64,000 nt of DNA from Morinoia aosen (lineage: Eukaryota; Arthropoda; Malacostraca; Amphipoda; Talitridae). The notes beneath the pieces were generated by a model, which was given only the letters and a program-made list of their open reading frames with translations, had not been told where the DNA came from and made no database searches. The stretch covers positions 54,234,020 to 54,298,019 of the forward strand of contig CM059567.1 of the NCBI GenBank assembly GCA_030386875.1. Direction: 5' to 3'. The position numbers and the translations under genes are program-made. Shown here piece after piece: positions 7,861 through 53,299 of this stretch (position 1 is the stretch's first letter; each line of letters opens with the position of its first letter).

Positions 7861-8169
7861 TGTGACTGCCTCAACAATTTCTATCGACGAGGGGAAGGTT
7901 CAGAAAAGTCCACGGATGATGCAAAACTTGTCCTAAGCAGCCATTTATTGTACATAAATTTTCATTTCCTTCTCTGGAGTCTACACACTACTTCAACACA
8001 ACTGGCCGCCTCTACTCAGCTCGCAGAGTTTAAATACCTAATGTACCGGAAGAGAGCGTTTCCGGAAAACGAGTGAACGTGCGGACTGGTTCCCTCGATA
8101 TTCGAAGGCACAAATTTTCTACCGCTGTTTGAAAATAGAAATTTCCTAAATTGCTGCGAAGGCAGCACA
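7861..8169 (-). repeat. BEL 3' LTR
   Basis: 309 bp. Differs from 13862-14170 only near 7925-7935 (AAAACTTGTCCTAA against AAAGCTTGTCTTAA). The last 24 bp of the gag-pol frame, including its stop codon, lie inside this LTR. Confidence 0.97.
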
Positions 8170-11100
8170 CTCCTCTCTCTCAACAGTGCTAGGTAAGATT
8201 ACTACAATATCTTTAATCGATCGCTCACAACTTTTGGTACCTCCGGAATTGTCCGTCCGCCGCAGCGTCGCCCCACGCACGCGTCCGTCCGATCCCGAGC
8301 GATGCACCGACTCTACCCGAGCCAGGGGCCACTGACATCTTGGAGACTGCGAGTCTCGTACCAGTACGATGTCCCCCTGGGACAAGGGACGCCTTGGTGT
8401 CGTCCATTTTCTGCGACGACTGATTTCTTGAAGGTAGAATTGTCTCCATAGTTGCCAGAATTGGTCCGCCAACAGCTGCACTCGCCGCCATCTTCGTGGA
8501 CCATAAGCGAGGAGGTCGCGATCTGTGAACGAGTCTGACGACTGTGTGCGAGAGGCGTCCCTCATGGTTAGCAAAGTGGAGGGACTGATAGGGAAAACAT
8601 CATTGGGGTCTTCGGAAGGGGCGTACAGGGGCGTAGAATTTACAATGGCCGCGGCTTCTATCAGGAGGGTGTGCATATCATCACGGTTGAGTGTCACCTT
8701 TCCTGACCTCCCCAAGGTCAGGTCGAGTACCTTTCTGATCGCTCCAATTTTTCTCTCCCACACACCTCCATGATGACTCGCTCCAGGGAGATTAAATTTC
8801 CACTCGCATCCCCTAGTCTCCATGTCCTTTGATACTTTGTTCAAATCGCAAGATTGAGACACCGCACCTGTAAAGTTGGTGCCTCGATCGCTTCTTATCA
8901 GCTGGGGGGTGCCTCGTACAGAGATGAATCTACGCAATGCGTTCATAAAGGAAGGAGTATCCATCCCACAGAGAGGTTCAACGTGAACTGCCCTGGACAC
9001 AAGGCAGGTCACCAATAGGCCATACATTTTCTTCGTGGCCTTTGTGATTCGGGTGCTCTGTCCGTCATGTACAGTGAACGGCCCGAAGACATCTAAGCCC
9101 ACCCGGGTGAAAGGTGGGGTGGGGATGAGACGATCTTCCGGGAGGTCGGCCATCATCTGTTGCTCAAAGGGAGCTCTCAGCCTCCTACAAATCACACAGC
9201 TCCTCAGGAGTCGTTCTATTTGCTTTCTACCTTGCGGGATGAAGAAGCCTAGAGATCGCACCTTACCAAGGGTGAGGAGACGGCCCTGGTGAGCCACCAG
9301 CTGGTGTGCCCGTCTTATAATTATCTGAGTGAAGGGATGGTTCCTGGGTAGGATCAAAGGGTGTTTTTGATCCACTGGTAAGTCACTGTGCTTTAGGCGG
9401 CCTCCTACACGGATCAGACCCTCTTCATCCACAAAGGGGGCCAGTGGTGTCAGTTGATGTCCTTCCGGTAGCTGCATTGGACCTGGTTTCCCCGTCTTGG
9501 GTAGTATTTCGCTGTAAGATTCTTGTTGGACGGCCTTAACGAGGTACATTTCAGCTTCCTGGTCGTTCTGAAGTATACGTAGTGTCGGTTCCGAAGAAGT
9601 GTTGAGGTTAGATCTCGCTCGCATCAGCCACTTATGTGCCAGGTTGTGCACGGTGCGGGTAACCCCGAGAAGCCTGGTCCACCTACTCAGTCGGTCCATC
9701 ACCGTACGAAATGGAGGTGGCGAACCGGTCAAGGTCGTGAAGGCTTTGGTCTCCGGCAACGATTCTGTTAGTTGCGCTTCCTCAAAAGGGGGCTGAGCGT
9801 CGACGACGCAATCTTCTAATATCCAGGCAGGGCCGGTGAACCAATGGCTGTGTACGAGCTGCTCTACATCCGTGGGACGAGTAGCCATGTCTGCGGGGTT
9901 CTCTTTCGTGTCTACGAAGTACCACTGAGTCGGAGAGCAATGCTTATTAATCAACTCTATTCTCCGGGTCACATATCTGGTGAAGCGTTTATCCTCATTT
10001 TTCAGGTATCCAAGAACAATTTGACTGTCCGTGTAGTATCTGACTTCTTGCACATTCACCTTGAGGTCGTTGAGGGTCTCTCTTGCTGCCAGTACTGCTT
10101 CGACTGCGGCGCACAGTTCCAACCGTGGTATGGTGGTAGCTGCCCTAGGTGCCACCCTCGAACTGGCGTTGATCAAGGTGGAATGTTTCTGCTCTCGGGT
10201 ACTGGTCAGCCGCAAATAAATCGCATAGCCAATGGCCTCCTGAGAGGCGTCACAAAAAACGTGAAGCGAGTGCCGTGAAACCTCTCCAAAGTCGCGCGGC
10301 TTCACGCACCGACTGAGGCGTATTTCCTTTGATCTTCTCAGTCCGTCTTTCCACGATTCCCAATGCTCTTCCAGTTTCTTAGGTAGAGGTTCGTCCCACA
10401 GAGTGGAGCTTTGGTTAGTTTCGGCAGTGCTATCAGACAGCGCCTTTCTTTGTAGAAGTCTGCCACCCAAAATAAGAGGCGCAGCTAGTCCGAGGGGGTC
10501 AAAGAAGGAGTTCACAGTAGACAGCACACCCCTCCTAGTGAAGGGTCTGTCCGGGATATTGACCTTGAATATTAACAGATCTTCGGAGACGTTCCAATGG
10601 ATCCCCAATGTTCGTTGGATAACGGATCCGTCCCAAGTGACAGTCTTTGGTGCGGCTAGTTCCTCGTCTGGCAGACCCACCGTTACCCGAGTGTCAGACG
10701 TGGCAACTTTGTGAATGTTCAACCCATACTTGTGCAACAGAGACCGCACCTCGCCAAGCAGCTCCCTGGCCTCGTCTGGGGAGTCCAAACTAGCAGACCC
10801 ATCATCAACGTACGTCGCATGACGGAGAAAGTCAGTGGCCCGGCTCGGGCGTCCGGATGCATCGCCCAGGTCGGCGATATGGCGAAGGGCGAACGCAGCG
10901 ACGGCCGGAGAGCTCCGCAACCCGAAGACATGGACCTTAGCTCTGTAGGGGACAATCTCGTTAGTAACCCGATTATCTTTGAACCAAAAGAAACGCAGAT
11001 AGTCCCTGTCTTCAATCTTGACTCGAAAATTGTGGAACATATTTTTTATATCAATTGTAAAGGCTACCTGGTGGAGTCGGAATCTCTGCAATATTCCCCG

Positions 11101-13836
11101 AAGGCTGTTGTTCAAATCGGGGCCCGTCAACAACTCATCATTGAGGCAGTGTCCCTTGTGCTTTGCTGAACCATCGAACACCAACCTAACTTTCCCTTCT
11201 TGGGCTTGCCTTACCGGGAAGATAGGCAAGTACCATCCCACGCCTTTCTCAGGAAGTTCCCCTGCGACTACTTCCTCAACGTGATCATTGTCAATGTACG
11301 ATTGCATTTTCTCGAGACTTAGTGTAGCACTTGAGGGATCTCGACGCAGTTTTCCCAACGTCGTGTTCGTTCTTCCCAATACAGACACGTAATTATTACA
11401 CAAATTTGGTGGATCTCTAGTAAAGGGTAAGGGCGCAACAATCCTATCGTCTTTCACTTCGATACCAGCTCTCAAAATACTTACAAATTTATTGTCTAAC
11501 ACACTCAGACCCTGGAGCTCGTCGTCGACTCGCTCCTCAAAGACGTCGAGCGTCTGCCTCCCAGGGTTGGGCCCACGTATCTTGATCGAGAAGTGATGAT
11601 CCTCGTGGTTCACGAATGACGTCCGCAGGGCAGTGGTCTGCTGGGTTCTCGCTCCTCCGTTCAATGGTCCCAACAGTGCCCAGCCCAGGGCGGTCTTGCA
11701 GGCAAGAGGACCTCGTACTCCATAGTGTCTAGATGCCATGAGCGACACGGCATCTCTTCCGATGAGTATCAGTGACCGAGCCAAAGGATCATGCTCATTG
11801 AAGTGCTTGACCAGGTGCGCAACGTGGCTGAGCTTCTTCACAACGTCGGGAGTGGCTACTTCGTCAGTCGTGTCCGGGATATTTTCGTTGGTCCATGTAG
11901 TGGGTAGCTGATGCCATCGGTTCTCACCCACACCCCTTATCTTGAGCCCGGTGATGGCGTGTCCTTCCACCTCAGACGACAGACCACTCAGTGTTCTGAG
12001 GGCGTACTTCCAGGGAGTGGCCTTAAGATCGAGCTGTTCTATCAGAGAAGGGTCCGCAAAGCATCTTGAGCTTTGCTCGTCAATGATGGCGTAACAACGC
12101 ACTTTTCTCTGGGTGGACGTCGAGGTGACATCTACTAACAGCGTCTTGGAAAATTCCCTGGACTCGAGACCGAGGCATCCAGTTCTGGTGCAGGTGGCGA
12201 CCTCACCAGGGGTCACCGGTTTAGTGCTTGCCCGGTGCATGACCGTCAAGTGTGAGCCTTGACAGTGAGAACACTTCACTTGTTTGTCGCAGTTCCTGAT
12301 GTAATGGGGACCAAGGCATCGGAAGCATACCTTCGCCTCGGTGATGAGCTTCTTCTTCTGGTCGATGGGTAGTCTTCCAAAGGACCGGCACTCCCAGGTT
12401 CCATGGGCGTCGACCTTGTGGAAAATACATTTGTTGATTCTATGGTCCGTTTCCGGAGGTTTTTTGTTGTGAGGTCCTTGCGCCTCATATCTTGACTCAG
12501 GTTTGTTGTAGGCCACCATGGACTGATCACCTTCACTAGACTCTTTCTTGGTATTCTGGTCAGCGCTTGTGTGCAGGACCCGAACGGGCTTGGGTCTTCC
12601 GCCTGACAGTGCTGGGTTGAAAAATGGATCCCTCATCGCTCTTTCTTCGTCTCTTAGGAACTGGTTGAAGAAGGAGAACGTTGGGTGCTGCCCACTCTTG
12701 GCTCGTAGGTCAGATGCTCTCCTATGCCATCTGCGTTGCAGATCTGGCGGGAGTTTGAGTGCCAAGAGCCTCATGCCTCTGGTAGTGCAAAACTCCTCCA
12801 GCTCGTCCGATCTTGCTGCGTTGGTAAGTGCGGTACTCGTAGAATCTAAGAAATCCTGGAGAGCGGTAAGATCCCCAGGAGGGATGTTTGGGAAGTTCCG
12901 AAGTTGGTCTGCCGTGTGTTCTGCTAGCAACCAGTCCGAACCATAACGCTCACGAAGGGTGTTCCATACCACCTGCAACACTGCCTCTGCATTGTCTCCG
13001 ATGACTGACCTCATAGTTCTCTGAACGTACTCCTTGGGTTTACCCGCGGTATTGGCCGCCAAAACTTGTAGCTCTTCGATGGGGCCCAAAGCTAGTCCCT
13101 GCAGTCGATTCTTCAGATCAGATTCCCAGCAATGGTACAATCCGATGTCTCCTTTGAAGGGGTTGGCAGGGGTCTTCAACAGCTCGGCCCGGATAAGGTG
13201 AACAGAAGCTGCATCTAGAGTGCTTCCCTGCCTAGGAGCTCTCAGTCGATGGTTTGCCTCTACTCTAGGCTCTAGAATCGACCTGCGAGAGCTCACGGAA
13301 GCGTGTTCCATCAGCCCTGCCAGATCATCTAGGTTGCTTTCCTGCTCTTGATATTCTTCATCCTCTCCTTCTGAGATAGTAGAAACCTCAGAGGCTACCG
13401 ACAGTGGTGTGGAAAAAGGTCCAACTTTTTCTCTTCTTACGGAGGTAAGTTTACTCATTCTCTCACTACGCAGAGAAGACAGGTCTTTGGGATCAAGGTT
13501 GGAAACCATGTCCCCTCCAAGCCTCTCCATCTGTTTGTTGAGCGTCGCGATGCGACCAAAGCAGTCTTCCAGCATCACACGTCTCTTCAAAAATTGCTCA
13601 TGGTACCGCTGCTTATGTCCTGCTCGTTCCAAGGAACCTTCAAAGGCTCTGCTTGAAGTGATGAACTGATCGCGCTTGACCTTAAGTTCAGCTATGAAGG
13701 ATAAGATGGCCGACGTCTCATCCTCTCCTGGACTCTCCCTGGACAGGGCTTCATAAAGATCGTCATAGGTTTTTACGGCTTCAACTTCAGCTAGTTTAAG
13801 GGTTTTCTTTGAGCTTCTTTTGGCCATTTGAGACAT
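8146..13836 (-). CDS. BEL gag-pol polyprotein, 1896 aa, intact
   Basis: A single frame encoding all functions needed for reverse transcription and integration. Order by approximate residue: coiled gag head; DUF1759-like capsid segment (PFKGDIGLYHCWESDL, about 225); zinc knuckles CFRCLGPHYIRNC (about 505) and CSHCQGSH (about 522); retropepsin with IIDEQSS (about 584); RT with TYVDDGS (about 1010); RNase H with HVFCDAS (about 1193); integrase zinc finger (H/H about 1512, CVIC about 1549); catalytic core (GLDVFGPF about 1583, RSDRGTNF about 1653, VWERKIGA about 1692); DUF5641-like C-terminus (about 1785-1880). The start ATG lies only 25 nt inside the 5' LTR boundary, and the stop lies within the 3' LTR. 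The protease motif DEQS replaces the more common DSGS, a variation expected in BEL elements. No frame breaks seen. Confidence 0.95.
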   Translation of the reverse strand: MSQMAKRSSKKTLKLAEVEAVKTYDDLYEALSRESPGEDETSAILSFIAELKVKRDQFITSSRAFEGSLERAGHKQRYHEQFLKRRVMLEDCFGRIATLNKQMERLGGDMVSNLDPKDLSSLRSERMSKLTSVRREKVGPFSTPLSVASEVSTISEGEDEEYQEQESNLDDLAGLMEHASVSSRRSILEPRVEANHRLRAPRQGSTLDAASVHLIRAELLKTPANPFKGDIGLYHCWESDLKNRLQGLALGPIEELQVLAANTAGKPKEYVQRTMRSVIGDNAEAVLQVVWNTLRERYGSDWLLAEHTADQLRNFPNIPPGDLTALQDFLDSTSTALTNAARSDELEEFCTTRGMRLLALKLPPDLQRRWHRRASDLRAKSGQHPTFSFFNQFLRDEERAMRDPFFNPALSGGRPKPVRVLHTSADQNTKKESSEGDQSMVAYNKPESRYEAQGPHNKKPPETDHRINKCIFHKVDAHGTWECRSFGRLPIDQKKKLITEAKVCFRCLGPHYIRNCDKQVKCSHCQGSHLTVMHRASTKPVTPGEVATCTRTGCLGLESREFSKTLLVDVTSTSTQRKVRCYAIIDEQSSRCFADPSLIEQLDLKATPWKYALRTLSGLSSEVEGHAITGLKIRGVGENRWHQLPTTWTNENIPDTTDEVATPDVVKKLSHVAHLVKHFNEHDPLARSLILIGRDAVSLMASRHYGVRGPLACKTALGWALLGPLNGGARTQQTTALRTSFVNHEDHHFSIKIRGPNPGRQTLDVFEERVDDELQGLSVLDNKFVSILRAGIEVKDDRIVAPLPFTRDPPNLCNNYVSVLGRTNTTLGKLRRDPSSATLSLEKMQSYIDNDHVEEVVAGELPEKGVGWYLPIFPVRQAQEGKVRLVFDGSAKHKGHCLNDELLTGPDLNNSLRGILQRFRLHQVAFTIDIKNMFHNFRVKIEDRDYLRFFWFKDNRVTNEIVPYRAKVHVFGLRSSPAVAAFALRHIADLGDASGRPSRATDFLRHATYVDDGSASLDSPDEARELLGEVRSLLHKYGLNIHKVATSDTRVTVGLPDEELAAPKTVTWDGSVIQRTLGIHWNVSEDLLIFKVNIPDRPFTRRGVLSTVNSFFDPLGLAAPLILGGRLLQRKALSDSTAETNQSSTLWDEPLPKKLEEHWESWKDGLRRSKEIRLSRCVKPRDFGEVSRHSLHVFCDASQEAIGYAIYLRLTSTREQKHSTLINASSRVAPRAATTIPRLELCAAVEAVLAARETLNDLKVNVQEVRYYTDSQIVLGYLKNEDKRFTRYVTRRIELINKHCSPTQWYFVDTKENPADMATRPTDVEQLVHSHWFTGPAWILEDCVVDAQPPFEEAQLTESLPETKAFTTLTGSPPPFRTVMDRLSRWTRLLGVTRTVHNLAHKWLMRARSNLNTSSEPTLRILQNDQEAEMYLVKAVQQESYSEILPKTGKPGPMQLPEGHQLTPLAPFVDEEGLIRVGGRLKHSDLPVDQKHPLILPRNHPFTQIIIRRAHQLVAHQGRLLTLGKVRSLGFFIPQGRKQIERLLRSCVICRRLRAPFEQQMMADLPEDRLIPTPPFTRVGLDVFGPFTVHDGQSTRITKATKKMYGLLVTCLVSRAVHVEPLCGMDTPSFMNALRRFISVRGTPQLIRSDRGTNFTGAVSQSCDLNKVSKDMETRGCEWKFNLPGASHHGGVWERKIGAIRKVLDLTLGRSGKVTLNRDDMHTLLIEAAAIVNSTPLYAPSEDPNDVFPISPSTLLTMRDASRTQSSDSFTDRDLLAYGPRRWRRVQLLADQFWQLWRQFYLQEISRRRKWTTPRRPLSQGDIVLVRDSQSPRCQWPLARVESVHRSGSDGRVRGATLRRTDNSGGTKSCERSIKDIVVILPSTVEREECAAFAAI

Positions 13837-13861
13837 TGCAGAGATGTTGTTGAAAATTTAT

Positions 13862-25527: not shown

Positions 25528-27906
25528 TGTAGCATATCGCTACAAAGCGTAAGAATTATAAATTTTCCCATTCGCACTTAAATAAATTAATTATTGGCAT
25601 TAAAATCTTACTATAATTTATTATTAATTATTTTCTACTTCTAATTCGTAATCATTGAAGTTTCTGTGTAAATGCATGAAACAATAAAATAACACCCGAC
25701 ATTTTTCGAGAGAGGAGCCCTCTGGTGGCAATACTGCGCAGTTGCGCGTCTCTTCTTCAAAAAGCCACTCTTACTTTGGCGCCTTACTCTAGCGGTGTTA
25801 CAGCAAATTCTCGTGAGTAAAAATGTGTTAGAAAATTATCGTGTTCCTTTTCGTCGTGTTCAGTGAGTATAAATAGTGACAGTGCTGGTATTAAGATGCG
25901 TAATTGTGCGTGGAAATTGATGTAGCATGTTCTCATTCAGAATTCCTCAACATGACTTAGCGTTAATTTTTACGCCATGTGCATTTCGTGTGTCAGTAAT
26001 TTATACTAAATACTAAACTACGTTTTTTTCCCTTACTGAAAGTCATACACTTGCAGCGTTCATGTCGAGATTGAAATTCGATCATATAAATACTCGTTAG
26101 AGCACGACAGAGCCGCTAACGTCTTGGTGCCGGTTCCTTGTTCTTAAAAATAGCGACGCACAGATTGCCGTCGCGTTAGGATTTTGCGATTCAAAAATCG
26201 TATCTTACGCATTTTAGAATAAGATTCTTTACAAACATACTAGTAGTAGTTTTCCTTAAATGTGTGACGTGTAATAAGTGGGAATGCCTTTTCAATAATT
26301 TCGTACGAACTAATAGAGTACGCAAATTATTCATGCACATGCTTGCTAAAGTTTCTTTTAGTTTCCTTTTCTTTAATTTCATACTCCTTAAATCGCGTTT
26401 AATCGCACTTATTTCAATTTAAATCATTTCAATAAAAATTTAATTCCATTCTGTTCATTCTTGTGACAAAAACACCCACTACCATTTGCCTTTCGTGAGT
26501 GCGTACAAATTATGCCGGCGGCTTGGCGAATGCCGACGTGTAGAGCCGCCGGGTTAATCGCCGCACTGATTTTCATGTTTTCATCTTGCGCATATTTCCT
26601 TTCTTTGCATGCAAAACGTTTAGTGTTTCCTTCTTTTATTGTGGAGATTATTCCATAATTTTTTAGTATTGCAAATGACCTTTATCGGTGATCTTCAGTA
26701 GGACTTATATCAATGAAACCTTGGAATTTTTCTCTGTTATTTCTTGTACAGTTATAGAGACGTTCTGGAGTACTTAAAGAAGCATTAATTCTCTTTCTAT
26801 GAAATTCTTAATTGCTGTAATTCTTTTCTTTTGCTTCATGAACCATGTCTTGTTAAGTCATGTGTTTTCCATGGTTCCAGGGATTTGATCCCCGATATTG
26901 CTCTTAGATAATCACTAAAAGTATTACTAAAAATTCTTAAATTTTATGCCTTGTATTAAAGCAAGAGCAGCTGTATAAGAGTTCTTAATTGATTCTGTCC
27001 TATCTCTCTACTTTTGAGCTTGACGAGAAAGAGAACAAATGAAATTGACTAGAGTCAAATCTGTAGGATTTCTCGAATTCTGCTGTGTGGGAGTTTTATT
27101 CATTACGATGTTGTGGGACTGTCAGTGGTGAAATTCCTTGATGTCTCCTTGGACTGTTCATCCAGCGTATTGGAATCTTTGCAGGACTTCAACGTCATCG
27201 CCACACACCACTCGCAACAACCTCCCTTGGGCCTTGTTTTGCCTCAACTTGAGCCGCCTTGTTTTGCCTCAACTTGAGCCGCCTTGTTTTGCCTCAACTT
27301 GAGCCGCCTTGTTTTGCCTCAACTTGAGCCGCCTTGTTTTGCCTCAACTTGAGCCGCCTTGTTTTGCCTCAACTTGAGCCGCCTTGTTTTACCTCAACTT
27401 GAGCCGCCTTGCTTTGCCTAAAACTTAAACTTAAACTGGCCGGAACTGGCCCGACCTTAACTGGACGTGACTTAACCAGAATTTACCTGGCTTTGGGCCT
27501 CATTTTCGGTCTCGCTTGTTTGGGCTTTAACGCTACTTAACTCACCTAAGAATTGCCTCAACTTGAGCCGCCCTGCCTGGCCTCAACTCAATCAAAATCG
27601 ATCACTCACAACGTCACGGTTTCCTCAAAGTCGATAAATTGGCCCCCTTACATCATTTGCAAACCACACACACACACACGGTCGACTCCAGCTATTTCTC
27701 CAGGAGCCTCCCGACTGCCCGGACTGCAAACCCTCTTCTAGCCAAGTTCATCGGTGGTTCAAGACTCGGCGGTCCTCTCCGGCTTCTTTCCAATATATAC
27801 CCCAAAAGCTGAGTCCAAAGTGCCTTATTATCCTTCTCATAATTTTCTCCCAGATGCTTGTCGAGGTTTGTAAGGACTGGCTATACCCCGCGGCCAGATC
27901 CTAACA
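25528..27906 (+). repeat. Element C 5' LTR
   Basis: TGTAGCATATCGC to GATCCTAACA, 2379 bp, unusually long. Includes the 25-bp palindromic tandem array at 27231-27419 and an ACACACAC tract near 27668. No ORF of substance. Confidence 0.95.
27231..27419. repeat. 25-bp tandem array with palindromic core in the element C 5' LTR
   Basis: About 7.5 copies of GCCTTGTTTTGCCTCAACTT plus GAGCC. Every copy contains the perfect 11-bp palindrome CTCAA-C-TTGAG. An isolated copy of the core recurs near 27555. The same array is present in the 3' LTR. Confidence 0.95.
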
Positions 27907-27991
27907 CTGGTGACCCCAGAGTGACTAAAGCAATTAAAGTGACAAGCAGAGTGACTAAAGTGACAAGCAATTACTAAAAGATTTTCCTGCA
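27907..27991 (+). other. Element C primer-binding site and shortened leader
   Basis: TGGTGACCCCAGAGTGA begins one base after the LTR. TGGTGACCCC is complementary to a tRNA-Trp-type 3' end. An imperfect repeat (GAGTGACTAAAG, AAGTGACAAGCA) follows, and then the deletion junction where gag and protease should be. Confidence 0.8.
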
Positions 27992-29662
27992 TTGACAAAT
28001 TCTAACTTAGTTTCTACAAAAATGCAGGCCAGCACAAAGCACTTCATAGAGACGACGGGACCGCCGGTCTACTCCCGAGCAAGGCGACTACCGCCTGATC
28101 GATTGGCGTTAGCTAAGAAAGAATTTGCGCGCATGCAAGAAAATGGCATTATCCGCAGTTCCAAAAGTCCTTGGGCTAGCCCTCTTTTGCTAGTACCCAA
28201 GGCTAACGGTGAATTCAGACCGTGCGGGGATTTCCGCAGGTTGAATGCCGTTACTCTACCTGATCGCTACCCTATTCCTTACTTGCATGATTTCAGTGCA
28301 AATTTAGAGGGAGCTCAAATTTTCTCTAAGATAGATCTCCAGCATGCCTTTCATCAAATTCCACTTGATGAGAGTGCTATCGCTAAGACCGCGGTAATCA
28401 CTCCTTTTGGTCTTTTTGAATTCCTAAAAATGCCACACGGCTTGAGGAACGCTCTTCAGACGTTCCAAAGGCACATGGCGGAAATTTTCTCTGACCTCAC
28501 TTTCGCTTATGTCTATTTAGACGACATCCTAGTGGCATCCACAACCCCGGAGTTGCACAAAGACCATCTTAGGGTCGTTTTTCAAAGATTGTCCGACAAT
28601 GGACTCCTCGTAAACCCTGCAAAATGTGAGCTCGGAAAGCCATCACTGATTTACTTAGGTCATGAAATCTCTAGCCTAGGTCTAAAACCTTTGCCTTCCA
28701 AAGTAGAAGTGATCAAAAACTTTCCTCTTCCACAGACCCAGAAGGAACTAAGAAGGTTCCTAGGTTCTGTTAACTTCTATCATCGTTTCATACGCAACTG
28801 TGCTCAAACCCTAGCCCCCTTGTCTGACTGGCTTGAACCGAAACGAAAAGGCAAATCTATTGAGGTAAAATGGACAGAAGAAGCGCGCAAAGCTTTTGAG
28901 GAAATCAAGCACAAGTTAGCATCCGCGACTGAATTATCCTACCCTATTGCTAATGCTGATTTTAGCCTCGTTGTTGATGCATCCAGTACCGCCGTAGGTG
29001 CTGTGTTGCAACAACAAGTAGGCACTAATATCTCTCCTCTTGCTTTCTTTTCAAAAAAACTGTCGCCCACTGAGCGTGCTTATAGCGCGTTCGGTAGGGA
29101 ACTTCTTGCTATCTACTTGTCTGTGAGACACTTTCGCTATGCTCTAGAGGCAAGGGAGTTTGTGATCTACACAGATCACAAACCTCTGACCTCAGCGATC
29201 AAGATGCCTTCTGAGCGGCATTCGCCAAGAGAAGCTCGACACCTGTCATATATTAGCCAATTTACCACTGACATCCGTTTCATAAAAGGGTTGGACAATA
29301 CTGTCGCTGATTGTCTATCACGCATAAATACTGTCCAAACCAGTGGTGAAATCACTTTTGGTAATATCTCCAAGACTCAGAAGGAGGATCCTGAACTTCA
29401 GGACCTTCTCAAACCTTCTAACACTTCCTCTCTGAAATTGACCTTGGTTGACGGCGTGTACCGTGATGCCGAGCGACTTTCTCGTTTGTATCTTCCCGCG
29501 ACTCTCCGCAGAGTAGCTGTCCTCCACTATCATTCCTTCTCTCATCCTGGTATTAACCGTACATTGCGTTTGATTTCCGATCGTTTCGTTCGCCAGCGAT
29601 GCGTAAGGAGGTCAAGCAAATTGTGCAAAATTGCCATGCATGTCAGAGTAGTAAAGTGGTGA
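27992..29662 (+). pseudogene. Element C pol: RT, RNase H and integrase N-terminus
   Basis: There is no proper start codon; the reading frame simply emerges from the gag/protease deletion. RT: FRPCGDFRRLN, YPIPYLHDF, KIDLQHAFHQIP, YLDDILVAS. RNase H: LVVDASSTAVGAVLQQ, GRELLAIY, IYTDHKPL, ADCLSRI. Integrase zinc finger begins HYHSFSHPG. Near 29590 one base is missing relative to element A (in the codons after DRFV), so the true pol frame continues in the next reading frame at 29599. Everything after DRFV in this frame is out of frame. Confidence 0.92.
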
Positions 29663-30870
29663 AACACAATCGTGCAGCGCTGCAGAGTTGTGCATTCACA
29701 GGTCACAAGTTCGACTCTGTACACCTAGATTTGGTGGGTCCTTTGCCTTTATCGCGCGGTCATTCTTATTTGTTGACCATCATAGATAGGTTCACACGTT
29801 GGGTTGAGGCTGTCCCTCTTCCTGATACCCAAACCGAGACTGTAGCGCGCGCTTTCATGTCGATCTGGATCTCCAGATTTGGTGTTCCCTTAAGGGTCAC
29901 ACATGACCGGGGATCACAATTCACCTCCAAATTCTGGAGTGAGCTTAGCACTGCTTTAGGGTGTGAAAACGTAAACACTACCGCTTATCATCCACAGTCA
30001 AATGGACTTATTGAGAGAGTCCACAGAGACTTAAAGTCGGCAATACGTTGCCTAAACTGCAGCAATGATTGGACTGACAGACTTCCAATAGTATTGTTGA
30101 GCATCCGCAATCTGTACCGACAAGATCAGCAGTGCACAGCAGCAGAGATGCTCTATGGTCAAACACTTCGTCTCCCCGGCGACATTGTTGACCCAAAACC
30201 TTTGCACGAATTTTCATCCGCTGACCGTTCCGCATATGTAACCTGTCTTAAAGACTCCATGCGTCAGATCAAGTATGTTGCCCCGCGAATGCCTCAGACT
30301 GAGGACAAACTGGATCCTGCCTTGCAGGACTGCACACATGTGTACGTCCGAAACGACGCCATCAAACCTACACTCACGCGCCCTTATGATGGCCCATTCA
30401 AAATACTCAAACGCACGCCCAAATATTTCATCCTTGAAAGATCTGGTTCACACGACCCCGTGAGCATTGATCGATTAAAAGTCGCGTACACTTCCGATCA
30501 TAGTGTAACTGCTAAACCATCATTCTCTCCACAGAATTCTCTTTCCACTGAGACTCGATCATATCTACCATCTCAGCTTCCTCAGTTGGCTGCATTGTTG
30601 CCTAGTCAACTCGAGTGTAATCCTTTCTATGTGCCTGTACATTCAAACCCTATCCCTAAGCCTATCGTAGATTCTAATTCTAGCCCTCTTACTGAAACAG
30701 CGACAAGTATGGATAGACCAGACGAGCCCGCTGCAGTAACTCGTGTTCCTAGAACTCTTGCCGATCTACATTTGCAGACACGATTGGTGAAACTTCCCCG
30801 CGTAGTAAGATTTTCTGACCGCCAAACCCGGCACGGTCGCGTAGTTAGACCTCCTTCCCGCTACAAATGA
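29599..30870 (+). pseudogene. Element C integrase, catalytic core to C-terminus
   Basis: Continuation of pol after the single-base deletion. Zinc-finger CHAC; catalytic D in HLDLVGPLPL, D in THDRGSQFTS, E in NGLIERVHRD; a C-terminal domain with YDGPFKILKR (GPF-type) and a tail ending VVRPPSRYK. All three catalytic residues are present. It stops 41 nt before the 3' LTR, leaving no room for an env gene. Confidence 0.92.
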
Positions 30871-30911
30871 TTGCAGCGGGTGGACCTTTCGGTCTGCGCC
30901 TTGGGGGGTAA

Positions 30912-33291
30912 TGTAGCATATCGCTACAAAGCGTAAGAATTATAAATTTTCCCATTCGCACTTAAATAAATTAATCATTAGCATTAAAAATCTTACTATA
31001 ATTTATTATTAATTATTTTCTACTTCTAATTCGTAATCATTGAAGTTTCTGTGTAAATGCATGAAACAATAAAATAACACCCGACATTTTTCGAGAGAGG
31101 AGCCCTCTGGTGGCAATACTGCGCAGTTGCGCGTCTCTTCTTCAAAAAGCCACTCTTACTTTGGCGCCTTACTCTAGCGGTGTTACAGCAAATTCTCGTG
31201 AGTAAAAATGTGTTAGAAAATTATCGTGTTCCTTTTCGTCGTGTTCAGTGAGTATAAACAGTGACAGTGCTGGTATTAAGATGCGTAATTGTGCGTGGAA
31301 ATTGATGTAGCATGTTCTCATTCAGAATTCCTCAACATGACTTAGCGTTAATTTTTACGCCATTTGCATTTCGTGTGTCAGTAATTTATACTAAATACTA
31401 AACTACGTTTTTTTCCCTTACTGAAAGTCATACACTTGCAGCGTTCATGTCGAGATTGAAATTCGATCATATAAATACTCGTTAGAGCACGACAGAGCCG
31501 CTGGCGTCTTGGTGCCGGTTCCTTGTTCTTAAAAATGGCGACGCACAGATTGCCGTCGCGTTAGGATTTTGCGATTCAAAAATCGTATCTTACGCATTTT
31601 AGAATAAGATTCTTTACAAACATACTAGTAGTAGTTTTTCTTAAATGTGTGACGTGTAATAAGTGGGAATGCCTTTTCAATAATTTCGTACGAACTAATA
31701 GAGTACGCAAATTATTCATGCACATGCTTGCTAAAGTTTCTTTTAGTTTCCTTTTCTTTAATTTCATACTCCTTAAATCGCGTTTAATCGCACTTATTTC
31801 AATTTAAATCATTTCAATAAAAATTTAATTCCATTCTGTTCATTCTTGTGACAAAAACACCCACTACCATTTGCCTTTCGTGAGTGCGTACAAATTATGC
31901 CGGCGGCTTGGCGAATGCCGACATGTAGAGCCGCCGGGTTAATCGCCGCACTGATTTTCATGTTTTCATCTTGCGCATATTTCCTTTCTGTGCAAGCAAA
32001 ACGTTTAGTGTTTCCTTCTTTTATTGTGGAGATTATTCCATAATTTTTTAGTATTGCAAATGACCTTTATCGGTGATTTTCAGTAGGACTTATATCAATG
32101 AAACCTTGGAATTTTTCTCTGTTATTTCTTGTACAGTTATAGAGACGTTCTGGAGTACTTAAAGAAGCATTAATTCACTTTCTATGAAATTCTTAATTGC
32201 TGTAATTCTTTTCTTTTGCTTCATGAACCATGTCTTGTTAAGTCATGTGTTTTCCATGGTTCCAGGGATTTGATCCCCGATATTGCTCTTAGATAATCAC
32301 TAAAAGTATTACTGAAAATTCTTAAATTTTATGCCTTGTATTAAAGCAAGAGCAGCTGTATAAGAGTTCTTAATTGATTCTGTCCTATCTCTCTACTTTT
32401 GAGCTTGACGAGAAAGAGAACAAATGAAATTGACTAGAGTCAAATCTGTAGGATTTCTCGAATTCTGCTGTGTGGGAGTTTTATTCATTACGATGTTGTG
32501 GGACTGTCAGTGGTGAAATTCCTTGATGTCTCCTTGGACTGTTCATCCAGCGTATTGGAATCTTTGCAGGACTTCAACGTCATCGCCACACACCACTCGC
32601 AACAACCTCCCTTGGGCCTTGTTTTGCCTCAACTTGAGCCGCCTTGTTTTGCCTCAACTTGAGCCGCCTTGTTTTGCCTCAACTTGAGCCGCCTTGTTTT
32701 GCCTCAACTTGAGCCGCCTTGTTTTGCCTCAACTTGAGCCGCCTTGTTTTGCCTCAACTTGAGCCGCCTTGTTTTACCTCAACTTGAGCCGCCTTGCTTT
32801 GCCTAAAACTTAAACTTAAACTGGCCGGAACTGGCTTGACCTTAACTGGACGTGACTTAACCAGAATTTACCTGGCTTTGGGCCTCATTTTCGGTCTCGC
32901 TTGTTTGGGCTTTAACGCTACTTAACTCACCTAAGAATTGCCTCAACTTGAGCCGCCCTGCCTGGCCTCAACTCAATCAAAATCGATCACTCACAACGTC
33001 ACGGTTTCCTCAAAGTCGATAAATTGGCCCCCTTACATCATTTGCAAACCACACACACACACACGGTCGACTCCAGCAATTTCTTCAGGAGCCTCCCGAC
33101 TGCCCGGACTGCAAACCCTCTTCTAGCCAAGTTCATCGGTGGTTCAAGACTCGGCGGTCCTCTCCGGCTTCTTTCCAATATATACCCCAAAAGCTGAGTC
33201 CAATGTGCCTTATTATCATTCTCATAATTTTCTCCCAGATGCTTGTCGAGGTTTGTAAGGACTGGCTATACCCCGCGGCCAGATCCTAACA
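30912..33291 (+). repeat. Element C 3' LTR
   Basis: 2380 bp, near-identical to 25528-27906. Its copy of the 25-bp palindromic array lies at about 32616-32804 with the same number of units. Confidence 0.95.
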
Positions 33292-39250: not shown

Positions 39251-42200
39251 ATGGATGATAGCATGAGCTCTACTCCTCGCAAGGTGCTCAAAGGTTTCAT
39301 GGCCGAGGCCTCTCCTCACAACACTCCTGCTGCTTTCAAGAAGGACGGCCAGCCTGAAACTAGGAGATCAGTTGCTCGTGGTGTGTTGGCTGCTGCTTTG
39401 TTTTGCCAGCCAGAGAATGTATTTTTGCAGTAATGGTGCTCAGGGTTGTGTTGAATTGTGGGTGAATGTAGCCATACAATTTGATCACTAACTATTTTAA
39501 TGGATGGGATAAATTTGTTGGAACAGTATAGTACTTTCCATTTTCTACTATTATTTCATTCATCAGTAGAAAATATATTTTTTGCACGTAGATGTGCTTA
39601 CTATTTCAGGAAGGATGACTGTGGAGATTTTTTGGTGCTGCTATAGCGTGAGGTCTACCACATTATAGCATAAGGTCTACCTTTAACTAGTAATATAGTG
39701 TGAGGTCAAGTTATTAGTGGATATTACTTATTTCCATACATTTAACTTAGCTATAAACACTTAATTGTACATCTCAAACTGCACCTGGGCTAGCGATATA
39801 TGGAGGTAGATCTCACAGTATAGTAGCAAAAAATTTTTTTTACTTTAGTAGTGACTTGGATGATGCCTGATGTTCATTCTAGATGTTTAGGTTTAATTTC
39901 AAACGGAGAGAAAGTGTTCATAAACATTCTTTTTGAATGGATGTGAGTTTGTGTTTACATTAGAGATACAGTAGTTGCGCACAATATGGAAGTAGGTTTG
40001 TGTGTATGTCAATATAAATCTGAGGCTGCAACAAATGCCTGACTGGCATTAGCTCTTGCTTTTGTGTTCAAGTATTATAGGTTTCAAAAGTTTTGCTTGT
40101 GTTTTCATGTTAACTTGCTTGTGTTTTCATGTTTACATGAATGGTCAGGTTGTATTTGTGATCTATAGTTCCTACTATTTGCAAGGTTGTGTAGATAATG
40201 GTTTACCTTCGAGATATAATACATCAGGACGAGTGAGTGTGATGTGTAAGTTCAAGTCTTCATAGCTTTGGATTAATCAGTGAATGTGCACAATAGTGCC
40301 TTATTGTAAAATTTCACTTTTTCTGTCCAAAGGAGACCAAATGTGAATAATATGAAGTGCCTAGTTCAGTAAAACTCATTATTTGTAACCTCACAAATTG
40401 GACATGCTTTTCAGATCATGTATGGATTTTTATGTGTTAAATTATATTATATGTGAGTGAGTGATATTCTTGTTACTGCTGAGTGATGCTCAAACAAGAG
40501 ATCAAGTGCTAAAACCGAATGAGGCTAAGTCCAGTAGAAGCTTCAGACCTCAATTGGAACTGCTTTTAGTAATTAATGGCTTGCAGGTGTGTCATTCTAA
40601 GCATCCGTGATCTAGCACACCCACTTGTAGTAGTTCACATCTGTTGTAGGTCAATTGCTAAGATGAATATGTTATCTATGGATTTCTTTCTAATTCTGCA
40701 TCCAAATGATAACTCACTATTAACATGAGCCTTGGGGTCATATTACTTGGTGTCATGTAAGAAATTCCATCCAAGACTTGCATGGTATCAATGAAAATAT
40801 ATGATGAAATTTTGTGTAAGTAAACACAAATTAAGCTCAAGAAGAGTGTGTGTGTTTGGTAATATTGGAAATGTCATAAATATTTGGTGTGAATTATTTT
40901 GAATGAAGAAGTAACGTTTGTTATGGTTCCACCGCATTCAGAATAATTTTGGTATTAACTTTGGAGGAAGTCCTATGACATAACGCATGAGTTTGTGCTA
41001 CATTTTTTTATGAGTGACATTTTCTATATCCTTTGCGCGTACAATCTCAGTGGTTGATTTTAAGCTGGCAACCCAATAACAATTGGTTTCCAAACTTAGG
41101 TTCAATATTGCTGTAAAAATGATCTTGTGGGATGTTGTTTTTAGTTTCCATGATTTGTAACTTACTTGTATTGTTGTATGCTTACATGCCTGTGTTGTTT
41201 TTTCAGAACTTGATGCCCCTGAAGATCTGCGTAAGAAAGTGCTAAAACGACGCTCCATAAATGCAAAAAAAGGTGAAACAGCAGATGTTTCTCTGAAAAA
41301 AGCCGACCAAAGCTTAGGACAGAACCTCACGTATGCAAATGTTTCTCAGATTTCCTCAGCATCAGATGAAAGTATTACACATGAAAAAGAAAAGTTGCGA
41401 ATAAAACGCAAACGTCAGGGTATTTCCTCCAGCCAACTTCGTCCTTCAGAAAGCACACAGAAGAATATTTCTCTTGCTAACTTCACCTATGCAGAAGTTT
41501 CTGATGACGACTCTTCTTTGGGGGACACTTTATTGGCCGAGAGAGAAAAGGTAGCCAAGCGGAAGAGGGGAGGTAGAATTATATCATCTTCTCAGCCAAT
41601 GGGTGGTGTCCGCAAAGCCTCCTTGCCTGCAAAAGAATCAAACGTCACGCTACCTGTGGACTACACTTATGCGGGCGTTGACACCATGGAATCCTCCGCT
41701 GAAGTCATAAACATAGACGACATCAAGAAGCGGCGAAGACAGTACACAAGATCGGGTAAACAGAACACAACGCGATTGGCTAGAGCTGAATTTGACAATG
41801 ACAACCAAACAAAAATGATCAATGAAAGCACCAAAGGGGAAATAGAAGGGACCTATGACTTTGATGACTCCAATAAAAGTTCTTCTGATGAAAGCATTGA
41901 CCTAAATGCCGTTAGGCAACGGAAGAAGAAATTCAAAGCAAGTTCTGCGAAAGCAAGAACAGGTGACATGCTCGCCACTGGTTCAGGTACAGACCCACTG
42001 CGCCTGTCTTCTGGCTCATCTGCTTCGTCAGGTCCTGGTGGTTATGTGACGGCATCACCTCATGCTTCTCCAGCTGCATCACCTCGTCGTGCATCACTAG
42101 CTGCATCACCTCGTCGTGCATCACTAGCTGCATCACCTCGTCGTGCATCACTAGCTGCATCACCTCGTCGTGCATCACTAGCTGCATCACCTCATGCTTC

Positions 42201-45200
42201 TCCAGCTGCATCACCTCGTCGTGCATCACTAGCTGCATCACCTCGTCGTGCTTCTCCAGGTGAATCACCTCGTAGTGCTTCTCCAGGTGTATCACCTCGT
42301 CGTGCTTCTCCAGGTGCATCACCTCGTAGTGCTTCTCCAGGTGTATCACCTCGTCGTGCTTCTCCAGGTGCATCACCTCGTTGTGCTTCTCCAGGTGCAT
42401 CACCTCGTCGTGCTTCTCCAGGTGCGTCACCTCGTCGTGCTTCTCCAGGTGCGTCACCTCGTCGTGCTTCTCCAGGTGCGTCACCTCGTCGTGCTTCTCC
42501 AGGTGCGTCACCTCGTCGTGCTTCTCCAGGTGCGTCACCTCGTGCTTCTCCAGGTGCGTCACCTCGTCGTGCTTCTCCAGGTGCGTCACCTCGTCGTGCT
42601 TCTCCAGGTGCGTCACCTCGTCGTGCTTCTCCAGGTGCGTCACCTCGTCGTGCTTCTCCAGATGCGTCACCTCGTGCCTCTCCAGGTGCGTCACCTCGTC
42701 GTGCTTCTCCAGGTGCGTCACCTCGTCGTGCTTCTCCAGGTGCGTCACCTCGTCGTGCTTCTCCAGGTGCGTCACCTCGTCGTGCTTCTCCAGGTGCATC
42801 ACCTCGTCGTGCTTCAAAAGCTGCATCACCTCGTCGTGCTTCAAAAGCTGCATCACCTCGTCGTGCTTCAAAAGCTGCATCACCTCGTCGTGCTTCAAAA
42901 GCTGCATCACCTCGTCGTGCTTCAAAAGCTGCATCACCTCGTCGTGCTTCACTAGCTGCATCACCTCGTCGTGCTTCACTAGCTGCATCACCTCGTCGTG
43001 CTGCACTAGCTGCATCACCTCGTCGTGCTGCACTAGCTGCATCACCTCGTCGTGCTGCACTAGCTGCATCACCTCGTCGTGCTGCACTAGCTGCATCACC
43101 TCGTCGTGCTTCACTAGCTGCATCACCTCGTCGTGCTTCACTAGCTGCATCACCTCGTCGTGCTTCACCAGGTGCATCACCTCGTCGTGCTTCACCAGGT
43201 GCATCACCTCGTCGTGCTTCTCCAGCTGCATCACCTCGTCGTGCTTCTCCAGCTGCATCACCTCGTCGTGCTTCTCCAGCTGCATCACCTCGTCGTTTAG
43301 CTCAAGTGTTGGCTCCAGAGCTTATCTCGAAAAAAGATAAGCCTCCATTCTCGCTGGGAAATAATTCATCTCCTTTATCTATTTCTTCTCGGAAATCTGT
43401 TCTGCAAGTACAACCGTCCACTAGCCCTGCGCGCCAAACTTCTGAACTTGAAAGTAGAAATGTTGCTTTGTTGATGAGCGCATCTGGTTCTGCTGCTGTT
43501 TCTACTCGTTCGGCTTCATATATTGATGGTGGTGCTTCACCTAGTAAATCTACTGGGAAAAAATTGTCTAATTTTGAGGATAGCTCAAACTTGAGTGTCT
43601 CTGATAAACTTGGCAATTCCAAAGATGTCTCCGTTGTTTCGACTCTCTCAGAAAAAAAGTCAGGTTTGGGAAAGAACCTCAGTGTGTCACTTGATTTGGA
43701 TGGGAGTTTAGTGGCTGCGTCTGGTCAAGTTAAGGGTCGAAATCTGGCAAGTTTGCCTCGGAGTAAGACAAATTTAAATATGGCTGCACTCATACAGAAT
43801 GCCCTGCATCTAGATACCGAAAATTCTGGTCCGACCACACAACTTGTTTCTGACAACTTACAGATCGAGGAAGGAGACACAAGTTCTGAAGTTAATTCCG
43901 ACGAATCTGTTGTTCCTGAGACCCCTGACTCCAATTTAGTAGTTCGTCATGATTCACCGAAAGCGACTACCAGACGCTCATTGTTAAAAGAGTTTAATGG
44001 CAGTAAAGCCCTCGGTGAAATTTTAGGTGAAGCTCCCTCTGTTATCCCTCCCCCTGCTAACTTTGAGGATGATCCCAACGTTTCACGCAGTAATTTGGAC
44101 GTTGAGCCAACTTTCGATAGCGAAAGTTCTGTGGCTAAAAGTGTTTCACCCCGTCAAGCTTCTCCCGCTGCGTCGTCGCCCCGTCGCGCTTCTCCCTCTG
44201 CGTCGTCGCCCCGTCGCGCTTCTCCCTCTGCGTCGTCGCCCCGTCGCGCTTCTCCCTCTGCGTCGTCGCCCCGTCGCGCTTCTCCCTCTGCGTCGTCGCC
44301 CCGTCGCGCTTCTCCCTCTGCATCGTCGCCCCGTCGAGCTTCTCTCGCTGCGTCGTCGCCCCGTCGGGCTTCTCCCTCTGCGTCGTCGCCCCGTCAAGCT
44401 TCTCCCGCTGCGTCGTCGCCCCGTCGCGCTTCTCGCTCTGCGTCGTTGCCCCGTCGAGCTTCTCTCGCTGCGTCGTCGCCCCGTCAAGCTTCTCTCGCTG
44501 CGTCGTCGCCCCGTCGAGCTTCTCTCGCTGCGTCGTCGCCCCGTCGAGCTTCTCTCGCTGCGTCGTCGCCCCGTCGAGCTTCTCTCGCTGCGTCGTCGCC
44601 CCGTCGAGCTTCTCACGCTGCGTCGTCGCCCCGTCGAGCTTCTCTTGCTGCGTCGTCGCCTCGTCGAGCTCCCGCTGCGTCGTCGCCCCGTCGAGCTTCT
44701 CCCGCTGTGTCGTCGCCCCGTCGAGCTTCTCCCGCTGCATCGTCGCCCCGTAGAGCTTCTCCCGCTGCGTCGTCGCCCCGTCGGGCTTCTCCCGCTGCGT
44801 CGTCGCCCCGTCGGGCTTCTCCCGCTGCGTCGTCGCCCCGTCGGGCTTCTCCCGCTGCGTCGTCGCCCCGTCGGGCTTCTCCCGCTGCGTCGTCGCCCCG
44901 TCGGGCTTCTCCCGCTGCGTCGTCGCCCCGTCGCGCTTCTCCCGCTGCGTCGTCGCCCCGTCGCGCTTCTCCCGCTGCGTCATCGCCCCGTCGGGCTTCT
45001 CCCTCTGCGTCATCGCCCCGTCGGGCTTCTCCCGCTGCGTCGTCGCCCCGTCGCGCTTCTCCCGCTGCGTCGTCGCCCCGTCGGGCTTCTTCCGCTGCGT
45101 CGTCGCCCCATCGCGCTTCTCCCGTTGCATCATCGCCCCGTCGGGCTTCTCCCGCTGCATCGTCGCCCCGTCGCGCTTCTCCCGCTGCATCATCGCTCCG

Positions 45201-46158
45201 TCGGGCTTCTCCCGCTGCGTCGTCGCCCCGTCGAGCTTCTTTAGCTGCAGCTAACAAATCAAGAATGTCAGTTTTATCTATTAAAAAAGAAGTTCTTGGA
45301 TCACCTGTTGCTAACAATCAGAAGAATTCATCAGCTAGTACATTGGAAAATTGGGTGAGAACGGTACCCAGTACCTCAGGTACTGCGAATAGGTCTTCAG
45401 GTCGTCAAGATGATCCAACTCATGTTAGAATTCTTGCTGATGAGTGGCATGAAGACGAAGATGACGTATATGTAGATGTGGTAGGTCTTGATGATAGTCC
45501 AGTAATGAACAAATCGCTTTCTCTTTCCGGCACTAGTTCTCACCGCAAATCTGCGCAAGCTGGAGCGCTTCCTCAAGGTGATCAATCTGGAACTGCACTT
45601 TTGCTTGATAAGTCGTCAAAATCCCTGTCTAAAACCGTAAGTCCTGCAAAAGAAAAGCCTTTGAAGCAGATGTCCATAAAAGGTTTTTTGAAATTCTTGG
45701 AGAAGAATGAATATGAGGCTCCTGGCGTAGCTGAGAAAAAACGTGAAGCTGAGGAGGAAGTTAAAAGGATGCTTAAGAAACCTGACGTGGAGAAGTCTCC
45801 TTTGTCAAAAGCCAAAACTCATTTGAGGAAAAAGGTTGTTCATGCATCCAAAAAATCAAAACTTTGGAAAACTCTTCCGTATGCGTACCACAAAGAAACT
45901 TTCAACAATTTCTCAAAACGAGAGTACAGTAAGGCGGTCATCAATGAAGTTGTTCAGGCGTCAGAAGTTTTCTTTGCTAATCTAATCTCTGATTTGAGCG
46001 AAGTTGCAACAGCTCGTGACCACAGTTCTATTCAACCGTCCGACGTTATATACCTCATGAAGAAACAGGGCCTTATTGAAGATTCAGAACATTCGCTCAA
46101 TGCTCTTGCGGAGGAGTTTTTGCCTGTTAATGAGTGGCCTCACTTGGATAATAAGTGA
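39251..46158 (+). CDS. CENP-T: CENP-T homologue (kinetochore protein), about 1693 aa, two coding exons
   Basis: CENP-T sits in the inner kinetochore (CENP-T-W-S-X nucleosome-like particle) and recruits Ndc80 and Mis12 complexes. Exon 1 is 39251-39380; the donor G|GTGTGT and the acceptor TTTTTTCAG|AA at 41206 join in phase 1, giving SVAR-E-LDAPEDL. Exon 2 is 41207-46158. The N-terminus has TPRKVLKG (8-15) and SPHNTP, like the TPRxLL motifs of vertebrate CENP-T. Four TYA-type repeats start near residues 83, 135, 195 and 258. SPRRAS arrays occupy about 326-740 and 1024-1391. The C-terminus, from about 1595, is a histone fold (YHKETFNNFSKREYSKAV, DVIYLMKKQGLIED, EEFLPVNEWPHL) resembling the human helices up to RRQGLV and the HLPLEY tail. 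It is about three times the length of the human protein because of the arrays. Further introns are possible but not required. The family call rests on both ends of the protein and was not tested by a search. Confidence 0.87.
39381..41206 (+). other. CENP-T intron 1 (phase 1)
   Basis: 1826 bp, GTGTGT...TTTTTTCAG. AT-rich. Contains three copies of ATAG(C/T)(G/A)TGAGGTC-like sequence (39645-39715) and a 22-bp tandem duplication, TTGCTTGTGTTTTCATGTTA (about 40094-40137). No embedded gene seen. Confidence 0.8.
42052..43296 (+). repeat. Coding minisatellite 1 in CENP-T: 27-bp unit, about 46 copies
   Basis: The unit encodes S-P-R-R-A-S-P-G-A (TCA CCT CGT CGT GCT TCT CCA GGT GCG). Variants are grouped: SLAA near the start, a long SPGA block, five SKAA (about 42811-42945), ALAA (about 42990-43115), SLAA, SPGA, then SPAA. 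A few units lack one Arg codon (42541, 42673). The reading frame is kept throughout. Confidence 0.97.
44146..45249 (+). repeat. Coding minisatellite 2 in CENP-T: 30-bp unit, about 37 copies
   Basis: The unit encodes S-S-P-R-R-A-S-P-A-A (TCG TCG CCC CGT CGC GCT TCT CCC GCT GCG), one residue longer than array 1 and much richer in CpG. Variant positions are R codon choice (CGC, CGA, CGG) and SP/SL/SS/SR/SH before the Ala pair. One unit near 44665 is shortened by three bases. The frame is never broken. Confidence 0.97.
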
Positions 46159-52189: not shown

Positions 52190-52962
52190 CTGTTGTTGGT
52201 GTTGTGCTGGTTGTGTGGTTGTGTGTTGCTGGTGTTGTGCTGGTTGTGTGTTTGTGTGTTGCTGGTGTTGTGCTGGTTGTGTGTTTGTGTGTTGCTGGTG
52301 TTGTGCTGGTTGTATGTTTGTGTGTTGCTGGTGTTGTGCTGGTTGTGTGTATGTCTATTGCTGGTGTTGTGCTGGTTGTGTGTTGCTGGTGTTGTGTGGT
52401 TGTATGTTGCTGGTGTTGTGCTGGTTGTGTGTTGCTGGTGTTGTGTGGTTGTATGTTGCTGGTGTTGTGCTAGTTGTGTGTTGCTGGTGTTGTGTTGGTT
52501 GTATGTTGCTGGTGTTGTGATGGTTGTGTGTTGCTGGTATTGTGCTGGTTGTATGTTGCTGGTGTTGTGCTGGTTGTATGTTGCTGGTGTTGTGCTGGTT
52601 GTGTGTTGCTGGTGTTGTGCTGGTTGTGTGTTTGTCTATTGCTGGTGTTGTGCTGGTTGTGTGTTGCTGGTGTTGTGTGGTTGTATGTTGCTGGTGTTGT
52701 GCTGGTTGTGTGTTGCTGGTGTTGTGCTGGTTGTATGTTGCTGGTGTTGTGCTGGTTGTGTGTTGCTGGTGTTGTGCTGGTTGTATGTTGCTGGTGTTGT
52801 GCTGGTTGTATGTTGCTGGTGTTGTGCTGGTTGTGTGTTGCTGGTGTTGTGCTGATCGTATCTTGCTGGTGTTGTGCTGGTTGTGTGTTCATTGTGTTCG
52901 TGCGCCGCTGGTGTTGTGCTGGTTGTGTGTTCGTGTGCTGCTGGTGTTGTGCTAATTTTGTG
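52190..52962 (+). repeat. 25-bp G/T-rich minisatellite, about 28-30 units
   Basis: The unit is GTTGCTGGTGTTGTGCTGGT plus TGTGT, with a 31-bp variant carrying an extra GTTTGT. The plus strand is almost free of A and low in C. Because 25 is not a multiple of three, several frames stay open and give Cys/Val/Leu-rich peptides (VLLVLCWLCVAGV), which are not taken as genes. Degenerate relatives of the unit continue to about 53290. Confidence 0.95.
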
Positions 52963-53299
52963 TTTGTGCACTAGTGTTAAGCATTTTTGATGTTTGTTTG
53001 CTGGTGGTGATGAGGATTATTGGTGTTCTTGTGCTGCTGGTGATATGCCTATTCGGAGATACAAGCTGCTAGTGACTTGATTCATTGGTGTTAGTGCTGT
53101 CTTGATTTGCTTATAATGTGATTGTGTACTGCTAGTGTTGTGCATACTTGGTGCTTGTGTGCTTCTGGTGTTGAGTTTATTTATTGCTTCTGTGCTACTC
53201 ATGCTATGCTGGTGCTGTTGTGTTGGTATGATAGACCGGTAATAGTGCTACGTTGGGATGATGTTCATATGCCACTAGTGTTTTGCTGGAAAGGTTTTT

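Follow-up and report, generated by a model that had tools for sequence, protein, structure and literature searches.

Chromatin is joined to the microtubule-binding machinery by two main links, of which CENP-T is one. In KNL1, another kinetochore scaffold, a disordered region carries a fast-changing array of kinase-target MELT motifs that recruit checkpoint proteins, and these repeats are reportedly the subject of a study by Tromer in 2015. For vertebrates, published work describes the recruitment of the NDC80 and MIS12 complexes upon phosphorylation of CENP-T by CDK1 (PMC5241120, PMC9427032), regulation of CENP-T through a handful of CDK1 sites (PMC9427032) and extension of its N-terminus under tension (PMC5241120, citing Suzuki 2011). 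According to another paper, CENP-T of insects (for B. mori, a protein of ~1000 aa judging by residue numbers that reach 1016) has a monomeric histone fold, with no CENP-W identified in insects, and CENP-T is also named from horseshoe crab, ticks, millipede and shrimp (PMC12678787); the main text of that paper contains neither "Hyalella" nor any "crustace-" word nor "repeat". Here we describe a CENP-T gene of the amphipod Morinoia aosen, located in a stretch of 64,000 nucleotides (contig CM059567.1, positions 54,234,020 to 54,298,019; hereafter, the window), in which two tandem arrays of an SPRRAS motif make up nearly half of the product and possibly serve as a linker whose charge is switched by CDK1.

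The original prediction had placed a CENP-T homologue of about 1693 residues at 39251..46158 of the window, and both the position and the length agree with the gene model, in which the product of 1693 aa is encoded by two exons (Table 1). Membership of the CENP-T family is secure by sequence. The C-terminus scores 46.5 bits against Pfam CENP-T_C (PF15511; E 4.3e-12, curated cut-off 28.1), its top PDB sequence matches are the chicken and human CENP-T chains 3vh5_T, 3b0c_T and 7qoo_T, and a clear orthologue is found in another amphipod. Another histone-fold family at the C-terminus, which the prediction had considered as an alternative, was rejected by the Pfam scores, because the next profiles, CENP-S (15.6 bits, cut-off 28) and TFIID-18kDa (13.3 bits), both fall below their cut-offs. 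The structure model, which is poor, appears to contain the histone-fold helices; a comparison of structures only did not separate CENP-T from another histone fold and left the identity undecided, the first five Foldseek rows being chicken CENP-T chains (E 9e-4 to 8e-3) and nucleosome chains following from E 1.1e-2. The region expected to form the two-helix extension of the fold can be aligned in sequence with chicken and human CENP-T through QGL...LP, and the model places one helix in it at 85-95, with pLDDT <50 from residue 91. At the extreme N-terminus, TPRxxL followed by A-x-P agrees, when aligned by eye, with the human T11 motif (human counterpart STPRTLLRRVLDTADP at 10-25 of 7qoo_T; Hyalella counterpart MTPRSALQAYMDVATP), and a PDB search with exon 1 gave no match up to E 10. 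The source genome contains one match to Ndc80_HEC among eight candidates (E 3.0e-8, 43.5 bits, cut-off 25.1), which covers part of the profile (16-78 of 147). No match to CENP-W (PF15510) was obtained among five candidates scored, and all 14 control genomes were silent too, so that its absence is not demonstrated.

The protein shares with vertebrate CENP-T (human, 561 aa, 7qoo; chicken, 3b0c and 3vh5) the C-terminal CENP-T_C fold, sequence similarity through QGL...LP and a TPRxxL motif, and differs from it in having 781 aa of SPRRAS arrays, four TYxxV modules and 75 full CDK sites. As had been predicted, about 780 residues lie in the two arrays (414 + 367 = 781 of 1693 aa, or 46%), and the protein without them measures 912 aa. 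Tandem Repeats Finder (score threshold 50) resolves array 1 (42063-43296) into 46 repeats of 27 nt (94% match, score 1726) and array 2 (44149-45240) into 36.5 repeats of 30 nt (93% match, score 1743); a script restricted to a fixed unit length and pattern, which drops irregular units, counts 42 and 34 units, respectively. SPRR is a full S/T-P-x-K/R consensus for CDK, and R-R-x-S is a motif of the basophilic-kinase type. The arrays hold 70 SPRR motifs and 67 RRxS/T motifs, most units reading R-R-x-S, and 71 full CDK sites (9.1 per 100 aa) as compared with four in the other 912 aa (0.4 per 100). The large added positive charge that had been expected is found by count: the net charge is +158 in the arrays, which include only 2 acidic residues in 781 aa, versus +12 elsewhere, and the computed value for the arrays with one phosphate (-2) per full CDK site is +16. 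The enlargement, which had been put at about threefold, holds in comparison with human CENP-T but not with that of Hyalella azteca (1023 aa), relative to which it is ~1.65-fold.

We consider it possible, with a probability of about 0.4, that the arrays constitute a disordered linker with CDK1-switchable charge in a translated CENP-T tether. The gene combines a histone-fold C-terminus and conserved N-terminal blocks with two in-frame arrays that differ by whole units between copies. The arrays would be translated and would lie as disordered polycations in the tether that connects the anchor on chromatin with the NDC80-binding N-terminus. During interphase, they would keep this tether bound to DNA or nucleosomes. 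Phosphorylation of the SPRR serines by CDK1-cyclin B as mitosis begins would cut the net charge of the arrays from about +158 towards zero, and the neutralised tether would then be freed and could stretch, the arrays acting as extra length. The number of units would set both the length of the tether and the steepness of the switch, and single units could be gained or lost. The more specific proposal of an electrostatic clutch, in which ~70 CDK1 sites flip a polycation of 780 residues at mitosis from a chromatin-bound to a free, stretchable state and evolution tunes the length of the tether and the threshold of the switch through copy number, appears doubtful.

The source genome contains three full-length open copies of the gene with an identical 152-aa C-terminus, namely the window copy (1693 aa), a copy of 1707 aa ~1.55 Mb away on the same sequence (C12) and a copy of 1717 aa on another (C24). 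Their arrays measure, in this order, 414, 389 and 398 aa (array 1) and 367, 407 and 407 aa (array 2), so that the totals of 781, 796 and 805 aa are alike although each array differs separately. Outside the arrays, the window and 1707-aa copies show a dN of 0.0033 and a dS of 0.0225 (ratio 0.149), and the 1707- and 1717-aa copies show no nucleotide difference over 911 codons and a single gap of one residue. The latter two are collinear at 99.56% over an alignment of 106,364 columns, to the end of the stretch compared, and the window copy aligns with the 1707-aa copy at 98.8% to the end of the window. The exon 1 start and donor are identical in both other copies, in which the intron has 3876 and 3868 bases as opposed to 1826 in the window copy, a difference that probably arose by insertion or deletion. 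The copies represent uncollapsed haplotypes or else large duplications of recent date; three of them exceed the expectation for one diploid locus, and Ndc80 gave a single match in this genome. Whether they are haplotypes or duplicates, the differences between them indicate that the arrays change by whole units.

The only relative found is a protein of Hyalella azteca (P0001) that carries PF15511. It was recovered with region 780-912 of the arrays-removed protein at E 9.8e-43, where 80% of the query (133 aa) aligned at 71% identity (one of 110 candidates at E 0.1). Its source record names it nascent polypeptide-associated complex subunit alpha, muscle-specific form, which looks like a misnaming, perhaps caused by the S/P-rich repeat. 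Conserved blocks are collinear between the two proteins, and outside the arrays the identity amounts to 123 of 308 aligned residues (40%) in the N-terminal part, 77 of 213 (36%) in the middle and 126 of 247 (51%) in the C-terminal part. At the place of array 1, the Hyalella protein as given by its source, in which a draft assembly might under-count repeats, has a stretch of 167 aa that starts as a 9-aa unit, SPRRAPTAA, and then decays, with 5 SPRR, 8 full CDK sites and no RRxS/T. The array at this place is therefore older than Morinoia aosen, and what is new here is the size of the arrays, their regularity and the second array. Because Hyalella keeps SPRR and has no RRxS/T in its array, the CDK half of the motif looks to be the older part.

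To our knowledge at the time of the original prediction, there was no CENP-T with SPRRAS-type arrays; this statement has to be corrected in view of the small, worn 9-aa SPRR array in Hyalella CENP-T. No description of a CENP-T with such arrays was found in the titles or abstract openings of the CENP-T literature searched, and the arrays are unusual in size, with a small precedent in Hyalella. A search with the C-terminal 303 aa gave no relative among 1469 candidates at E 0.01, and none was found in viral contigs. An alignment of the two species with permuted order gave none among 7990 scored candidates at E 1, a silence that is uninformative because P0001, one of its two sequences, was itself not recovered. 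These searches do not establish the absence of further relatives. Two other interpretations of the arrays were rejected. A repeat misread as coding is unlikely, because the frame stays open through both arrays in all three copies, the seven array gaps in the two copy pairs aligned are multiples of 3 and a related array is present in Hyalella; a dispersed satellite does not agree with the distribution of the SPRR codon pattern, which is dense only in the CENP-T gene among the window and the 29 loci examined.

Neutral growth of a minisatellite, in which a GC-rich repeat of 27/30 nt expands by slippage or unequal exchange in a linker that tolerates length and is translated as mere space-filling, is a tentative explanation that we regard as nearly as likely as the favoured switch. 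The make-up of the arrays differs among the three copies, and other, non-coding tandem repeats are present in the window, both in favour of this explanation. The position of the arrays between conserved blocks of an otherwise constrained protein and the survival of the SPRR core in a different unit in Hyalella speak against such growth. So does a comparison of the unit consensuses, TCA CCT CGT CGT GCT TCT CCA GCT GCA in array 1 and TCG CCC CGT CGA GCT TCT CCC GCT GCG TCG in array 2, which are identical whether derived from the window copy alone or from all three copies: over the nine shared codons they show, by eye, five base differences, all five synonymous, for which the probability is ~0.004 on the assumption that a change is silent in one case out of three.

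Several points nevertheless weigh against the switch. The pattern of silent differences was spotted before it was tested. All seven gaps in the arrays of the two copy pairs aligned (1707-1717 and window-1717) are multiples of 3, a point in favour of the reading as translated arrays, but such keeping of the frame is expected of any translated repeat and is uninformative on function beyond translation. Inside the arrays, silent variants are not significantly in excess when distinct variants are counted over 125 and 111 regular units from the three copies: in the SPRR codons, one silent variant stands against four replacements in array 1 (Fisher p 0.65) and five against three in array 2 (p 0.11), and in the remaining codons of the unit the counts are three against nine (p 0.72) and six against 13 (p 1.0), respectively. 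Because these tests are non-significant, we make no claim that selection keeps each SPRR, and neutral repeat growth is a serious rival. Finally, Hyalella has only the worn stretch with its 5 SPRR, which agrees with neutral growth, and nothing that corresponds to array 2, so that array 2 is not required in amphipods generally.

The SPKK and S-TPXX tails of sperm histones bind DNA and offer a comparison for arms that would bind constitutively, adding affinity to the CENP-T anchor, perhaps for an AT-rich centromeric satellite, with no switch involved. The resemblance of the arrays to these minor-groove binders is a likeness of motif only; the 70 S-P-R-R repeats, the net charge and the scarcity of acidic residues would suit such arms. 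This explanation is nonetheless unlikely. Constant binding of DNA through mitosis is hard to reconcile with array serines that are full CDK consensus sites. Moreover, DNA binding by the CENP-T complex is already assigned to the histone folds (PMC9427032), and a DNA-binding patch of CENP-T in silkworm cells is dispensable for mitotic rescue (PMC12678787). Least probable is that the arrays are a spacer only, a longer entropic spring from chromatin to NDC80 in which charge and phosphosites are incidental, since this would agree with the near-equal total length of the arrays in the three copies and with the stretching of vertebrate CENP-T N-termini under tension (PMC5241120, citing Suzuki 2011) but would leave unexplained why one motif, a full CDK site, recurs in both arrays and in Hyalella.

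Outside the arrays, four TYxxV modules (aa 83 to ~294) have counterparts in corresponding positions of the Hyalella protein (aa 93, 143, 206 and 273). In shuffle tests, nine of 24 cross-module pairs scored above all 2000 shuffles, and the weakest were indistinct from shuffles; the modules may represent a docking site present in several versions. Module 1 starts NLTYANVS, and T195 of human CENP-T lies within LNLTFATP, in a region tied to MIS12 recruitment (PMC5241120). When the PDB was searched up to E 10 with a profile built from the eight modules, human CENP-T was not among the matches, and the possibility that the modules are MIS12-binding copies is a lead only. Between the arrays, the two blocks at 43699-43959 (aa 875-961) are conserved.

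Table 1. Features of the CENP-T gene of Morinoia aosen (positions in the window) and loci of its genomic copies.
Feature	Position	Strand	Description
Exon 1	39251..39380	+	aa 1-43 and one further base; from ATG to donor G|GTGTGT, continuing in frame into exon 2
T11-like motif	39272..39316	+	aa 8-22, TPRKVLKGFMAEASP; similar by eye to the NDC80-binding motif at T11 of human CENP-T
Intron	39381..41206	+	1826 bases; starts GTGTGT and ends TTTCAG in 3/3 copies
Exon 2	41207..46158	+	acceptor TTTTTTCAG; single open frame; stop at 46156-46158
TYxxV modules (four, diverged)	41323..41958	+	TYxxV...SS...basic; starts at aa 83, 135, 195 and 257
Array 1	42052..43293	+	aa 326-739; 9-aa unit, mostly SPRRAS(P/L/K)(G/A)A; 39 SPRR
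Inter-array region	43294..44145	+	blocks LPRSKTNLNMAALIQNA (within aa 875-909) and VPETPxSNL (within aa 936-961)
Array 2	44146..45246	+	aa 1024-1390; 10-aa unit SPRRASPAAS; 31 SPRR
Conserved block KGFLKFLEKNEYEAPGVA	45679..45732	+	aa 1535-1552; from the alignment with Hyalella
CENP-T histone fold	45904..46128	+	matches Pfam CENP-T_C over residues 69-143 of a 152-aa query
Copy loci	C12:52730346, C12:54279719, C24:11944210		

The window also holds, on the minus strand at 8146-13857, a single open frame (1903 aa) whose translation looks, by eye, like the polyprotein of a BEL/Pao-type retrotransposon. At 27231-32804 there are frames that look Gypsy-like by eye (27959-30870, plus strand), with one and the same 25-bp tandem repeat on either side (27231-27419 and 32616-32804), an arrangement like that of long terminal repeats. 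Downstream of the CENP-T gene, a GT-rich minisatellite with periods of 25 and 232 occupies 52195-52964 and is also found beside the 1707-aa copy.

The MELT repeats of KNL1 are comparable to the arrays described here in that an array of kinase motifs lies in a kinetochore scaffold, and differ from them in protein, motif and kinase; moreover, MELT recruits checkpoint proteins, whereas SPRRAS is without a known partner. Bridgin of basidiomycetes offers a functional likeness: it has a basic stretch that contacts DNA and nucleosomes in a kinetochore linker, but unlike the CENP-T arrays it is a protein in its own right, which the outer kinetochore recruits (PMC9252888). A CENP-T with ~70 sites beside a relative with few sites provides a natural comparison for the roles of tether length and bulk charge at kinetochores, and the arrays of Morinoia aosen suggest that KNL1 is perhaps not the sole kinetochore linker open to the expansion of an array of kinase motifs.

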